Virus record (IMG/VR): IMGVR_UViG_3300036398_002819
Coordinates: 1-64,000 of that record
From: a virus
DNA: 64,000 bases
Reading direction: 5' to 3' (one strand)
Positions 22,093 to 35,287 of this stretch are shown one piece after another. The translations under genes were made by a program, and so were the position numbers. Position 1 is the stretch's first letter. Each line of letters begins with the position of its first letter. Under the pieces are notes generated by a model. The model had not been told where the DNA came from. It saw nothing but the letters and a program-made list of their open reading frames with translations, and did no database searches.

Positions 22093-22524
22093 TTAATTAA
22101 ACCCCGCTTGGAAACGATTCCATTCAATTGCATTCTTGATTTGAAAAGTTCTATTGGAAACTGTCTTGATAATCTCCTCAAGAAACTTCAACATAATGTC
22201 ATAGTATCTAATTTTAAGGTCTATTTTATTCAGTCTCTCATCAGCGTCTAGATGCCTCTGTAACGCCTCTTTGTCTCTAACTTTATATGGGAATGGTTCT
22301 TCAACATAAACCTCTGCTGGTGCCTTTCCTGTATAGTAGTTGTATCTTTCTAGTTTGACCCTACTATAAGTTTCTCTTGCCTTTTCTCTAAGAAGAGTAA
22401 TTGTATTGTATATGGTATAATATTTGGAATGAAGTTGTGGAATTTTTAAAGATTCATCGTGCAAATTATCAGGATCAATGACAGAATCTCTCTGCCACAT
22501 CTCCTGGATTTCATCAAGTGTCAT
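22093..22524 (-). CDS. uvsY: Recombination mediator UvsY
   Basis: Loads the UvsX recombinase on single-stranded DNA coated with gp32. 143 residues (T4: 137). MTLDEIQEMWQRDSVIDPDN at the start, PQLHSKYYTIYNTITLL, the YYTGK segment and the C-terminal NRTFQIKNAIEWNRFQAG are the family hallmarks. The start overlaps the previous structural gene (ATGA), linking recombination to late genes. Confidence 0.94.
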   Translation of the reverse strand: MTLDEIQEMWQRDSVIDPDNLHDESLKIPQLHSKYYTIYNTITLLREKARETYSRVKLERYNYYTGKAPAEVYVEEPFPYKVRDKEALQRHLDADERLNKIDLKIRYYDIMLKFLEEIIKTVSNRTFQIKNAIEWNRFQAGFN

Positions 22525-23066
22525 AAAGGTTTGTTTTGCATATTTAAGATGTTATAGATAGTATACTTGAAAGACACCTCTGCTGTAAAGTAATTAATAT
22601 CAGTATCCGTAGCAGTAAAATCCAAAGAAGTTAAAGAAACTGGAAATAAATCTTTAAATCTAACTTGAACCTTGGGATTATAGTTGCTGTTTAATATAAT
22701 CAAAGTAGCATCACTAAAAAAATTCAAAGGATCTGAAACACCAGATTCCATCAATTTATCATCAAATTGTTTAGGTGTTTCTGGAAATCCAAGTGCAGTT
22801 AACCAGTTATGAATTGTTGTATAATTAACTAGATCTTCATCAACTAAAAATCTTAATTTTAAATCTTCATACTCTAATTGATCTCCAGGAACATCTATCC
22901 TTTTTAAATAAGTTGATTGTGTCTCAGTTTGTAAAGTTATTTGAGGTATTTTTGCAGAATTGCAGAAAAATGAAACTTTTGGATACTTAGATAAGGTAAA
23001 TTGAAACCCTACAGGAGATAAAAAGTTTCTATTTGATATTTGTTTAGCAAATGGAGAAGTTGCCAT
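22521..23066 (-). CDS. Tail-tube-like virion protein
   Basis: 181 residues from the ATG at 23066; a longer frame to 23102 would overlap the gene before it. FAKQISNRNFLSPVGFQFTL, then FFCNSAKIPQITL and RIDVPGDQLEYEDLKLRFLV fit a tail-tube (gp19-type) beta-barrel, with LDFTATDTDINYFTAEVSFKY near the end. I recall this as a conserved cyanophage virion protein. It could be a second tube-like protein, a tube initiator or a head-completion protein, so no gene symbol is given. It is coupled to uvsY. Confidence 0.75.
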   Translation of the reverse strand: MATSPFAKQISNRNFLSPVGFQFTLSKYPKVSFFCNSAKIPQITLQTETQSTYLKRIDVPGDQLEYEDLKLRFLVDEDLVNYTTIHNWLTALGFPETPKQFDDKLMESGVSDPLNFFSDATLIILNSNYNPKVQVRFKDLFPVSLTSLDFTATDTDINYFTAEVSFKYTIYNILNMQNKPL

Positions 23067-23070
23067 TATT

Positions 23071-23307
23071 TTATTGAGGGGAGAACATAGTGCTTCCAAC
23101 AAATCTCTTTACAAATTTATCAGAATAAGATGAATTTTGTTTTGGATTTTGTTTTTTTGGTTTTAGAGATGAAATAGGAGAAGGCCCTGCAACTCTCATA
23201 GCAGATTGAATATTTTTTTGAACCGTTGGATCACTAAGTTTATATACGCTATTTGGACTTATTGGATCTCCAACTGCTTCATTCATGAATTGTTGAAAAG
23301 TTTTCAT
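23071..23307 (-). CDS. Small basic protein with capsid-targeting-like N-terminus
   Basis: 78 residues. MKTFQQFMNEAVG is nearly the T4 capsid-targeting sequence MKTYQEFIAE, which brings internal head proteins into the prohead and is cut after Glu by gp21. Cleavage after MKTFQQFMNE would leave a 68-residue basic protein (SLKPKKQNPKQN, KFVKRFVG). This suggests a DNA-associated internal head protein, by analogy with T4 IPI-IPIII. It lies just after gp23 and its terminator; a TCTAAATA box, one step off the late consensus, is 19 nt upstream. Confidence 0.7.
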   Translation of the reverse strand: MKTFQQFMNEAVGDPISPNSVYKLSDPTVQKNIQSAMRVAGPSPISSLKPKKQNPKQNSSYSDKFVKRFVGSTMFSPQ

Positions 23308-23325: not shown

Positions 23326-23333
23326 TATTTAGA
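23326..23333 (-). promoter_or_regulatory. Degenerate late promoter box TCTAAATA
   Basis: Differs from NATAAATA at one position (CTAAATA) but is well placed: just after the gp23 terminator and 19 nt before the next ATG. A similar ACTAAATA overlaps the gp19 stop upstream of gp20. Confidence 0.35.
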
Positions 23334-23334
23334 T

Positions 23335-23360
23335 AAAAAAAGACCCCCTTTCGGGGGTCT
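23335..23360 (-). terminator. Strong intrinsic terminator after gp23
   Basis: Perfect 8-bp stem AGACCCCC/GGGGGTCT with a GAAA tetraloop and seven T, about 20 nt after the major capsid gene. Confidence 0.95.
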
Positions 23361-23380: not shown

Positions 23381-24790
23381 TCACATAAGGTTAGTAACCT
23401 TGACTCTTCTGTAGTAGGTGTTGGTGTTACGGCTAAGAGCACCTTGACCCTGAGTAATACCTTCAGCAAATGGGTTAGCAACAAGACCGTAACGGGTCTT
23501 AAAGCCAATCTTGGGCTGGAAGGTGTTCTCACCAACTGCACGTACCATCTGGAGAGGTACATATGGGCAGTAGAAAAGACCAGCATCATAAGGTGAAGAA
23601 CCCTTATAACCTACAACGTAGAACTGGTTAGCAGAAACGTTTGCAGCATAAGGATCGATATAAACACGATACTTACCTTGCAGAACACCAGCGAAGGTGT
23701 TGCCAGTGTCATCAACGTTCAGGTTAGCGTTCAGAGCAGGGGTATAATCCAGAACACCTGCCATGGTGAGTGCAGAAGCAACGTCAGCAGAGCAGAGAAT
23801 CATATTACCCTTTCCTCTACGAGTTTGCTGTGCAATTGCGTTTGCATCGCGCTCGATTTGGAAGATAAGACCCTTAAACTTCTCAACAGACCAACGACCG
23901 TTGGAGTCAACGTCGAGGTCGAAAGTACCAGAAGTAGCAACGTTTGCTTGAGCACCAGGCTTAGCAACGTTATAGATGGTACGGATGATTTCGCGGTTGA
24001 TTTCAGCAAGAATCTCAGTTGAGAGAATATTTGCTAACTCAGCCTCAGCATTCAGACCATGAATTGCCTTCAGGTCTTGTGCGAGTTCGAGTGAGTACTC
24101 AGCCTTCAGTGCGCGTGACTTAGCGGTTACGGTGACTTTCTCGATTGAGAATGCCATCTGGTTGAAATGATCACCGCTGCCATCACCAAGGTTTTCTGCA
24201 CTGTCGGTACGCATACCTTGACCTACGTTGTAGGTGGTTGCATCACCAGTTGCAGGTGCAGTACCGTCAAGAAGACCAGGATTAGTACCTTGCTGTGCAG
24301 TAGTACCCATACCAACAGTACCATTGGTGAATCCACTGGTAACATTGAATCCTGAATCTTGTCCAGAGAATGCCGAATCTACTTCGTTGTAGAATGTTTC
24401 GTTTCCACTCTGGTTGTTATAACGAGAGCGCATTGCAAAGATGAGTCCAGTAGGACCGTTCATTGGTTGAACGCCACACAGATCATAAGCGACCAGATTT
24501 GGCATTGAACGGCGGATAAGACTGATCAGAACAGGATCGAAACCTGCGGTAGGACCAGCACTGAATCCTTGTGCGCTACCACCAAATCCAGCAGCACCAG
24601 CACTAGATGCGGTGAAGTTGGTTGGTGATTCATAAAGGAACTCGCGTGATTCGCGGAGTTCTTTTTCTTGGTTTTCGAGCAGGATAGCGGTTACAGCTCT
24701 ACGATGTGAATCTTTGATTTCATCGAGTCCTGAGTAGTCCAGGATAGGTGCCCACTTCTCCTGCAAATATTCTGCATTGAACATTTGCAT
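23381..24790 (-). CDS. 23: Major capsid protein (gp23)
   Basis: Forms the hexamers of the head shell. 469 residues (T4: 521). MFNAEYLQEKWAPIL, SLIRRSMPNLVAYDLCGVQP, MSRYNNQ-like FAMRSRYNNQSG and QMAFSIEKVTVTAKSRALKA match the T4-type HK97-fold capsid family. The likely gp21 cut is after E54 in FLYESPTN (L-x-E motif), removing the scaffold-facing N-terminus. AGAGG eight bases before the ATG at 24790 supports that start. No exact late box lies in the 49-nt gap upstream, so it may be read through from gp22. Confidence 0.97.
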   Translation of the reverse strand: MQMFNAEYLQEKWAPILDYSGLDEIKDSHRRAVTAILLENQEKELRESREFLYESPTNFTASSAGAAGFGGSAQGFSAGPTAGFDPVLISLIRRSMPNLVAYDLCGVQPMNGPTGLIFAMRSRYNNQSGNETFYNEVDSAFSGQDSGFNVTSGFTNGTVGMGTTAQQGTNPGLLDGTAPATGDATTYNVGQGMRTDSAENLGDGSGDHFNQMAFSIEKVTVTAKSRALKAEYSLELAQDLKAIHGLNAEAELANILSTEILAEINREIIRTIYNVAKPGAQANVATSGTFDLDVDSNGRWSVEKFKGLIFQIERDANAIAQQTRRGKGNMILCSADVASALTMAGVLDYTPALNANLNVDDTGNTFAGVLQGKYRVYIDPYAANVSANQFYVVGYKGSSPYDAGLFYCPYVPLQMVRAVGENTFQPKIGFKTRYGLVANPFAEGITQGQGALSRNTNTYYRRVKVTNLM

Positions 24791-24839: not shown

Positions 24840-25973
24840 TCACTTTTTAGCGACTCTGCTAAGAGTCTGAAGATATGCTCCCATCATAGGAGATACAGAT
24901 TCGGTTAAATCTGAACCATAAGAAACATCTTCAGATAAAGTTTCAGAGTCATCTCTTTGAGTACCAGCAGGTCTGGTTGGGAAATATGATTCCCTCAGAG
25001 TTACCAGTTTCTCACGATAGTTCTCTTCACTATCAAACTCAACATTTTCTGCAAGAGAAGCGAGTTTGTCCTTCTGAGAAAGTGCGAGACCCTCAGCGAC
25101 ATCTGCAAAGATTACATCAGCAACCGACTCAGCTAATCTTCTGTTGAGAGCAACGTTTCTTTCGATTTGCTCGTTGAGTTTTGCTTCCATTTCATCAAGT
25201 TTATCTACCATACTCTCGATTACATCATATCTATCTTCAGGGATTGAAACATAATGATCTTCAAAAAGACCTTTCATTCCTTGAATGAAAGATTCAGTCA
25301 TTTCGGTCTTAAGACCATGTTCAATAGCGAGTGCATTTTCATTAATCCACTCGTCACAAACATATTCAAGATATGTATCTAAACGCTCAGTAAGTTCGTG
25401 CTTAATAAATTGAACTTCTTCGATAAGAGCATTCTCATATGTTTCTTGAAGTTCTTCTTTAATTTCAGAAACTTTTGAACGAATAGCAGCTTCAAAAATA
25501 GTACGTGCTTTTTCTTGAAACTCTTCAGAAAGTTCTTCACCAGCAAGAAGAGCATTGACATCTTCTTCGATGTTAAACTCCTCTTCTGCAACTACACCTT
25601 CTTCTTCGTCCTCTTCTTCTACACCTTCTTCTTCGTCCTCTTCTTCTACAGATTCATCTTCAACAATTACTTCTTCTTCATCTTCTTCAGAAATAATTTC
25701 AGATTCTTCATCTTCAGTCTCTTCTTTAACTGAAGCTGCTTTAGCGTTAACAACATTCTTTACCTGAGCAAGAGTTGTTGCAGGATCTTTGAGTTTTGCA
25801 GAATCGTCATCTGGACGATAGTTTTCTGGAGTAGGGCCACCTAAATCTTCCCATGCACCAGTTTGCCCAGGTGTTACGACACCAGAAGCATTTCCAGATT
25901 GCAATGGTTCTGCAGGTTTTGCGCCTTTGGTTACTACGTTTTCCATTTCTTGTAAATTTCTACCAACGGACAT
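24840..25973 (-). CDS. 22: Prohead core scaffold protein (gp22)
   Basis: Main scaffold around which gp23 assembles, later degraded by gp21. 377 residues (T4: 269). After a Pro-rich N-terminus comes a highly acidic stretch (about 85-140) with a perfect 27-nt tandem duplication. Helical coiled segments follow (FQEKARTIFEAAIRSKVSEI, VDKLDEMEAKLNEQIERN). Many L/I-x-E sites suit gp21 digestion. Located between gp21 and gp23 as in T4, with a perfect late box 33 nt upstream. Confidence 0.93.
   Translation of the reverse strand: MSVGRNLQEMENVVTKGAKPAEPLQSGNASGVVTPGQTGAWEDLGGPTPENYRPDDDSAKLKDPATTLAQVKNVVNAKAASVKEETEDEESEIISEEDEEEVIVEDESVEEEDEEEGVEEEDEEEGVVAEEEFNIEEDVNALLAGEELSEEFQEKARTIFEAAIRSKVSEIKEELQETYENALIEEVQFIKHELTERLDTYLEYVCDEWINENALAIEHGLKTEMTESFIQGMKGLFEDHYVSIPEDRYDVIESMVDKLDEMEAKLNEQIERNVALNRRLAESVADVIFADVAEGLALSQKDKLASLAENVEFDSEENYREKLVTLRESYFPTRPAGTQRDDSETLSEDVSYGSDLTESVSPMMGAYLQTLSRVAKK
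25594..25647 (-). repeat. Perfect 27-nt tandem duplication in gp22
   Basis: Two identical 27-nt units (25594-25620 and 25621-25647) encode the nine-residue unit EEEDEEEGV twice in the acidic arm of the scaffold. The frame is kept, so it is a coding length polymorphism, probably from slippage. Confidence 0.9.
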
Positions 25974-26015: not shown

Positions 26016-26666
26016 TTAAAGATTTGAAAGAAACTCTTGGAACAATTGTACTTTGTTCTCCTGCAATATTCTTTCATCAACTAATGTATTAATTTTACGC
26101 TGAGTTGATTCTGCAAGTTTTTCACGAAGAATTCCTCCATCCCAAATCCACTCTTTTCCTTCCATAATTCCCTGAACAAAAGCATCAGGAGCAGAAGGAT
26201 CCGCTACAATATCAGCAGCGGTAGCGAGCATAAAATCTTCACCAACAATTTTATGACCTTCATTGGTCATCTTAAGTGAACCAACACCACGAGAAGAGAC
26301 TCCTAAGCAGACACCTTCATCAATAAGTGATTTTGCAATCTTACCCATCGGAGTTTCAAGAAGTTGTGCCTTACCTCTAAAGTTTGATCCTTCTTGAGTG
26401 AGAGAAATAATCTTGTGAGAAACTCTGTCAAGGTTTACAGTTGGACCGTCTGGGTGTCCAAGTTCTCCAAGAGCACGACCTTTATTAATAAATGCCTCAG
26501 TATATCTCTGAACTTCACGAGAAAGGGTATCCATAGGATACATTCTACCATTGCGGTTGCAAATGTCTCCCTGAAGAAATACACCTTCAATATACATTTT
26601 CTTTTGAGATCCTTTTCCTTCGGTAATAAATTTTACCTTTGAAATTTCTTCTGTGATGAGTTTCAT
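26016..26666 (-). CDS. 21: Prohead maturation protease (gp21)
   Basis: Serine protease of the herpesvirus-assemblin-like fold that cleaves scaffold and capsid proteins at L/I-x-E sites. 216 residues (T4: 212). The conserved ALGELGHPDGPTVNLDRVSH holds the likely catalytic His71, and LGVSSRGVGS (121-130) the Ser. The following AADIVADPSAP is typical. It lies between an 88-residue gene and gp22, near gp67, as in T4. Confidence 0.95.
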   Translation of the reverse strand: MKLITEEISKVKFITEGKGSQKKMYIEGVFLQGDICNRNGRMYPMDTLSREVQRYTEAFINKGRALGELGHPDGPTVNLDRVSHKIISLTQEGSNFRGKAQLLETPMGKIAKSLIDEGVCLGVSSRGVGSLKMTNEGHKIVGEDFMLATAADIVADPSAPDAFVQGIMEGKEWIWDGGILREKLAESTQRKINTLVDERILQENKVQLFQEFLSNL

Positions 26667-34978: not shown

Positions 34979-35287
34979 TTAGTCAGTCCAAGTTAATCTT
35001 TCTGGTTGATATCTTTGTGCGTTTTTGATTCTTGATGTATTTACCTGAGCAGGATAAACATTATGAACGATTGCTCCAGGATACTCTCCTTGAATTTGTT
35101 CTGCAAGTTCATTCTTAGGAAGCATTTTTCCTTCTATTTCCATACGATATAATTTTCCTTCCCAAACTACATCTGCAAAAAAAGATTCAGTTGCTTGTTC
35201 TGGTTGAGAACTCCCTACATTTAGGGTTCCATTGAAGTCTCCATTAATAGTAATACTTTCTGAAATAAATTGTTGAAAGGATTTCAT
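34979..35287 (-). CDS. Small protein with capsid-targeting-like N-terminus
   Basis: 102 residues. The N-terminus MKSFQQFISESITI matches the T4 capsid-targeting pattern (MKTYQEFIAE) and has an I-x-E site for gp21; cleavage would leave 92 residues. The body FFADVVWEGKLYRMEIEG, then NELAEQIQGEYPGAIVHNVY is a small alpha/beta domain of unknown function that I recall in other cyanophages. It may be an internal head protein. It is two bases from the genes on each side. Confidence 0.75.
   Translation of the reverse strand: MKSFQQFISESITINGDFNGTLNVGSSQPEQATESFFADVVWEGKLYRMEIEGKMLPKNELAEQIQGEYPGAIVHNVYPAQVNTSRIKNAQRYQPERLTWTD

Follow-up and report, generated by a model that had tools for sequence, protein, structure and literature searches.

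What is encoded by the small gene that follows the major capsid gene gp23 in this viral DNA, and is its product carried in the head and into the host, as the internal proteins of phage T4 are? An earlier note had proposed that the gene begins with a T4-like capsid targeting sequence (CTS) and that the protein might act early in the host. The DNA analysed (the window, 64,000 nucleotides) is a section of a 69-kb viral contig, and the gene is a minus-strand ORF of 78 codons whose translation is MKTFQQFMNEAVGDPISPNSVYKLSDPTVQKNIQSAMRVAGPSPISSLKPKKQNPKQNSSYSDKFVKRFVGSTMFSPQ. What the ORF encodes is likely to be an internal head protein of T4 type, from a T4-like cyanophage that uses a portable-tag system. 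Packaging of the protein is well supported by indirect evidence, and we infer that it is also cleaved and ejected.

The gene and its neighbourhood

The ORF lies directly downstream of gp23, as had been described, and is followed by a gp3-like tail completion gene, uvsY and uvsW (Table 1). Five IMG/VR contigs (L002-L006) encode the same ORF in the same place, at 77-100% identity, with dN/dS values of 0.17-0.25 between the window and three distinct relatives and of 0.17-0.41 across all pairs; it is therefore a real gene under purifying selection. Its tag codons vary silently among the relatives, with most residues kept. A tblastn search against annotated phages gave no homologue, even at E 10, and a profile search for distant relatives gave nothing new; S-SRM01 gp219 and a protein of contig L085, both shorter and encoded in the same slot, may be divergent relatives. 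An intrinsic terminator separates the ORF from gp23, and a late-promoter-like box precedes its start. The relatives share the two features, but TCTAAATA is not enriched above chance within the window, so the role of the box is uncertain.

Table 1. Features of the gp21-gp3 region and of the second tagged gene (window coordinates)
Feature	Position	Strand	Basis or remark
gp3-like tail completion protein, other slot edge	22521..23066	minus	phrog_45; synteny with annotated gp3 of P-SSM2, S-SM2
CTS-tagged basic protein gene, 78 aa	23071..23307	minus	ORF; relatives L002-L006; dN/dS 0.17-0.25, window vs relatives
Predicted mature protein AVGDPIS..., 68 aa, pI 10.2	23074..23277	minus	no known domain; pLDDT about 52-58
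CTS MKTFQQFMNE, residues 1-10; predicted gp21 cut after E10	23278..23307	minus	T4 IPII/IPIII match; relatives; AF2 helix 4-11
Late-promoter-like box TCTAAATA (CTAAATA), 25 bases before ORF start	23326..23333	minus	kept in relatives; weak
Intrinsic terminator after gp23	23341..23360	minus	kept in relatives; separates gp23 from the 78-aa ORF
gp23 major capsid protein precursor	23381..24790	minus	phrog_138 E=1e-173; 81-83% to P-SSM2, S-SRM01, AG-345-F15
Predicted gp23 propeptide cleavage site FLYE/S, after E54	24626..24640	minus	aligned with T4 FLTE/A
gp22 scaffold, expected CTS docking partner	24840..25973	minus	phrog_237; role inferred from T4
gp21 prohead protease, expected to remove CTS	26016..26666	minus	phrog_207; role inferred from T4
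Second CTS-tagged gene, MKSFQQFISES, 102 aa, phrog_1742 family	34979..35287	minus	adjoins packaging/neck genes

The phage encodes its own T4-type prohead protease, scaffold and capsid protein (phrog_207, phrog_237 and phrog_138). Its gp23 relatives at 81-83% identity (P-SSM2, S-SRM01 and the marine virus AG-345-F15) are all Kyanoviridae, which argues that the host is a cyanobacterium.

BLASTP against T4 IPII and IPIII aligned residues 1-11 only, with 7/11 identical and 10/11 similar, and gave no similarity beyond residue 11. The resemblance claimed between MKTFQQFMNEA and the T4 signal MKTYQEFIAEA was thus confirmed. The CTS of T4 IPII and IPIII was described by Mullaney and Black (1996), according to a review (PMC9026906); residues 4 and 7 serve targeting, residues 8 and 10 processing, and ten residues suffice for packaging (PMC9026906). 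The 78-aa protein fits all four positions, having an aromatic residue at 4, Phe at 7, a hydrophobic one at 8 and Glu at 10. Residue 8 is Met, against Ile in T4 and in relatives L003-L006; about 9% of tagged families likewise have Met at this position. Residues 4-11 form a helix in the AlphaFold model, and this is the best-modelled part of the protein.

As sequence, the proposed gp21-type cut after Glu also holds: the predicted site FMNE/A (slash, cut) resembles FLYE/S in the phage's own gp23 and FLTE/A at the end of the T4 gp23 propeptide. Met at P3 of the predicted site is unusual. The gp23 site was predicted from an alignment of 11 cyanophage gp23 proteins with T4 gp23, in which P-SSM2 and S-PRM1 carry FLSE/A. 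The tag end F-[ILM..]-x-E-[AS] thus resembles the gp23 maturation sites FLYE/S and FLSE/A, and one protease could serve both.

Distribution of the tag and detection of tagged proteins in virions

In a search of 16 phage records with the DNA pattern for [MV]K[ST][FY]xx[FY]xxE, 28 matches were found, against 0 for the reversed pattern. In T4 the pattern found ipII, ipIII and gp61.1; S-PM2, Syn9 and S-SM1 had no strict-pattern tag. T4 gp61.1 (NC_000866 18966-19130, minus; hypothetical, 54 aa) begins with the CTS-like MKTFKEFIKED. When the Glu condition was dropped, 21 distinct tagged N-termini were obtained, and 19 of these carried Glu at position 9 or 10.

The motif MK[ST]FxQFxxE[AS] matched at least 122 ORF starts in IMG/VR, on at least 120 stretches. 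Among the matches listed, the median number of in-frame codons after the preceding stop was 6, with 99% within 30, and the median open frame was 179 aa. Together with earlier searches, the matches listed gave 149 unique tagged proteins, which fall into 49 groups once the first 12 residues are removed; the tag is therefore portable. Domains among the tagged proteins include cytidylyltransferase, GNAT acetyltransferase, DPBB lytic transglycosylase, HiPIP-like, DUF5661, DUF6321 and DUF6267. The HiPIP-like iron-sulfur protein (L031:1501-1701; S-SRM01 NC_070963:47292) has the tag MKSFQEFLFEE. A GNAT acetyltransferase (L083:1012-1530) starts MKTFSQFVQEA and is possibly packaged; similar tagged genes occur in L101 and L201, and its 121-kb record (G001) also encodes an 82%-identical relative of the 78-aa ORF. 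The second tagged protein of the window is acidic, and its S-SZBM1 relative is absent from virion detections.

The gap between gp23 and gp3 is one recurrent site for tagged genes within the sampled phages and contigs. Tagged genes occupy it in the window group, in S-SRM01 (gp219) and in S-PRM1 (gp029), and tagged RlpA/DPBB-type lytic transglycosylase-like proteins lie there in four further contigs (L095:5138-5554, L129, L165 and L186). In P-SSM2 and AG-345-F15 the gap holds untagged genes of the 2OG-Fe(II) oxygenase-like kind, and other untagged genes fill it elsewhere.

Mass spectrometry finds tag-bearing cyanophage proteins in virions, according to three reports (PMC10665884, PMC9146016, PMC3037559). 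The S-CREM2 report gives 52 virion proteins (PMC10665884). The strict motif matches no CDS in S-CREM2; with a looser motif, five of six tagged CDS are in that list (Fisher p=0.003), a test that is not fully independent because the motif was fixed after gp14, one of the six matches, had been seen. The five are the SAM hydrolase gp6 (S-AdoMet lyase by Pfam), gp13, the kinase gp14, gp136 and the cytidylyltransferase gp154. The authors caution that co-purified proteins can enter virion lists (PMC10665884).

Another listed virion protein of S-CREM2, gp12 (L012:7704-10313), has RFASFMAEA about 17 residues in, which suggests that its start is misannotated or that the tag is internal; it is annotated as Cas9, a label set aside here since gp12 has no Pfam match.

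In S-SZBM1 one of three tagged proteins was virion-detected, and the link between tag and detection is not significant by itself. The detected protein is a cytidylyltransferase beginning MRFRQFIIEA; the other two, _191, a relative of the window's phrog_1742 gene, and _192, were not detected. The S-SM1 cytidylyltransferase SSM1_190 begins MKKFSAFLNEA, and its cluster T4-GC190 was reported in the S-SM1 virion (PMC3037559). The S-CRM01 kinase begins MISFDQFLSEK and is placed in virions by PMC10665884. Tagging and detection in virions thus go together, chiefly in a single phage. The reading of the 78-aa N-terminus as a T4-type CTS with a gp21-type site is supported indirectly, by the same tag on virion-detected cyanophage proteins and by the likeness of the tag end to the gp23 maturation site.

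Proposed fate and role of the 78-aa protein

By analogy with T4, residues 1-10 would attach the 78-aa protein to the prohead's gp22 core. Cleavage by gp21 behind Glu10 would then release a basic protein of 68 residues, beginning AVGDP, which would be packaged alongside the DNA and probably be ejected into the host at infection, as happens in T4. The short basic remainder that had been noted agrees with the predicted mature form (68 aa, pI 10.2). In Kyanoviridae and other viral contigs, dozens of unrelated proteins carry the same N-terminal tag. The cyanophage probably delivers a set of proteins along with its DNA, since dozens of unrelated cyanophage proteins bear the tag, including enzymes found in purified particles. 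We lean, with some reserve, towards a wider reading in which one portable tag is a general loading code of T4-like cyanophages for a large, exchangeable, virion-delivered set with cargo slots such as gp23-gp3, so that the tag alone would predict proteins delivered on entry. This set would comprise the SAM lyase, kinases, nucleotidyltransferases, acetyltransferases, lytic transglycosylase-like proteins and many unknown proteins.

Within the T4-type internal head protein there are two sub-cases. The protein may be an injected effector that acts early against a host defence or another host process, in the way that T4 IPI counters the GmrSD nuclease (PMC3012670). Tagged virion enzymes elsewhere have plausible early roles (S-AdoMet lyase, kinase, cytidylyltransferase) and the content of the slot differs between phages. 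Against an effector stands the protein itself, for which no target is known: the 78 residues had no match in PHROGs, Pfam or PDB sequences, neither IPI homology nor another known anti-defence domain was found by Pfam, PHROG or PDB sequence, and the AlphaFold model (mean pLDDT 58.6) is of low confidence beyond the tag.

The second sub-case, a tentative one, is a prohead core or DNA-condensing part that docks on gp22 and aids core assembly or neutralises DNA, with no host activity. The basic (pI 10.2), low-complexity, poorly modelled protein would suit such a role, its gene adjoins gp21-gp22-gp23, and T4 internal proteins touch DNA phosphates (PMC3012670). Related phages have other tagged or untagged genes in the slot, a replacement expected of accessory cargo rather than of a core structural part. 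A core or DNA-condensing protein, or one consumed in maturation, is roughly as good a fit as an effector; an effector role and a passive core or DNA-binding one are both compatible with a body that lacks a known domain or PDB relative and has a low-confidence model.

It is improbable that the N-terminal motif is some other amphipathic-helix signal, for tail or neck assembly or membrane contact, convergent with that of T4. The tagged family phrog_1742 does lie among packaging and neck genes, and some tagged proteins are missing from one virion proteome; against this, the same pattern finds T4 ipII and ipIII, the end of the tag is like the predicted cleavage site in gp23 of the same phage, and tagged proteins are over-represented in the S-CREM2 virion. 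That a short ORF resembles the T4 signal by chance, a reading that would draw on a match of only 11 residues, can be dismissed in view of the 0.0005 matches expected from shuffled N-termini against 3 observed, the 0 control matches and the purifying selection.

Comparison with known systems

The tag itself is known from T4. No description of broad use of the tag by cyanophages was found in the open-access papers searched. If it serves as a head address in cyanophages, the tag would allow the proteins that these abundant marine viruses bring into their hosts to be predicted from sequence, would account for virion-reported enzymes that might have been contaminants, and would offer a tool for delivering test proteins into marine cyanobacteria.

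The closest parallels are T4 IPII and IPIII, which share the 10-11 residue N-terminal tag, the Glu10 cut site, the small basic protein and the gp21/gp22/gp23 head genes; the 78-aa protein differs in its dissimilar body after residue 11 and its Met at 8, and its packaging, cleavage and injection are predicted. T4 IPI, the anti-GmrSD protein, is likewise a small head protein, with a mature form of 76 residues against a predicted 68 here, but IPI* has a compact fold (PMC3012670), whereas the present model is of low confidence outside the tag. The cyanophage virion enzymes (the S-CREM2 SAM hydrolase, kinase and cytidylyltransferase and the S-CRM01 kinase) carry the same kind of N-terminal tag; they are large, have domains and were reported in virions, and the tag is not mentioned in the available parts of their papers. 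The head propeptides of SPN3US and phiKZ are mostly longer, belong to giant phages and, in SPN3US, have an A-x-E motif, but these too are N-terminal, the prohead protease removes them by cleavage behind a Glu, and they include those of ejection proteins (PMC5694885).
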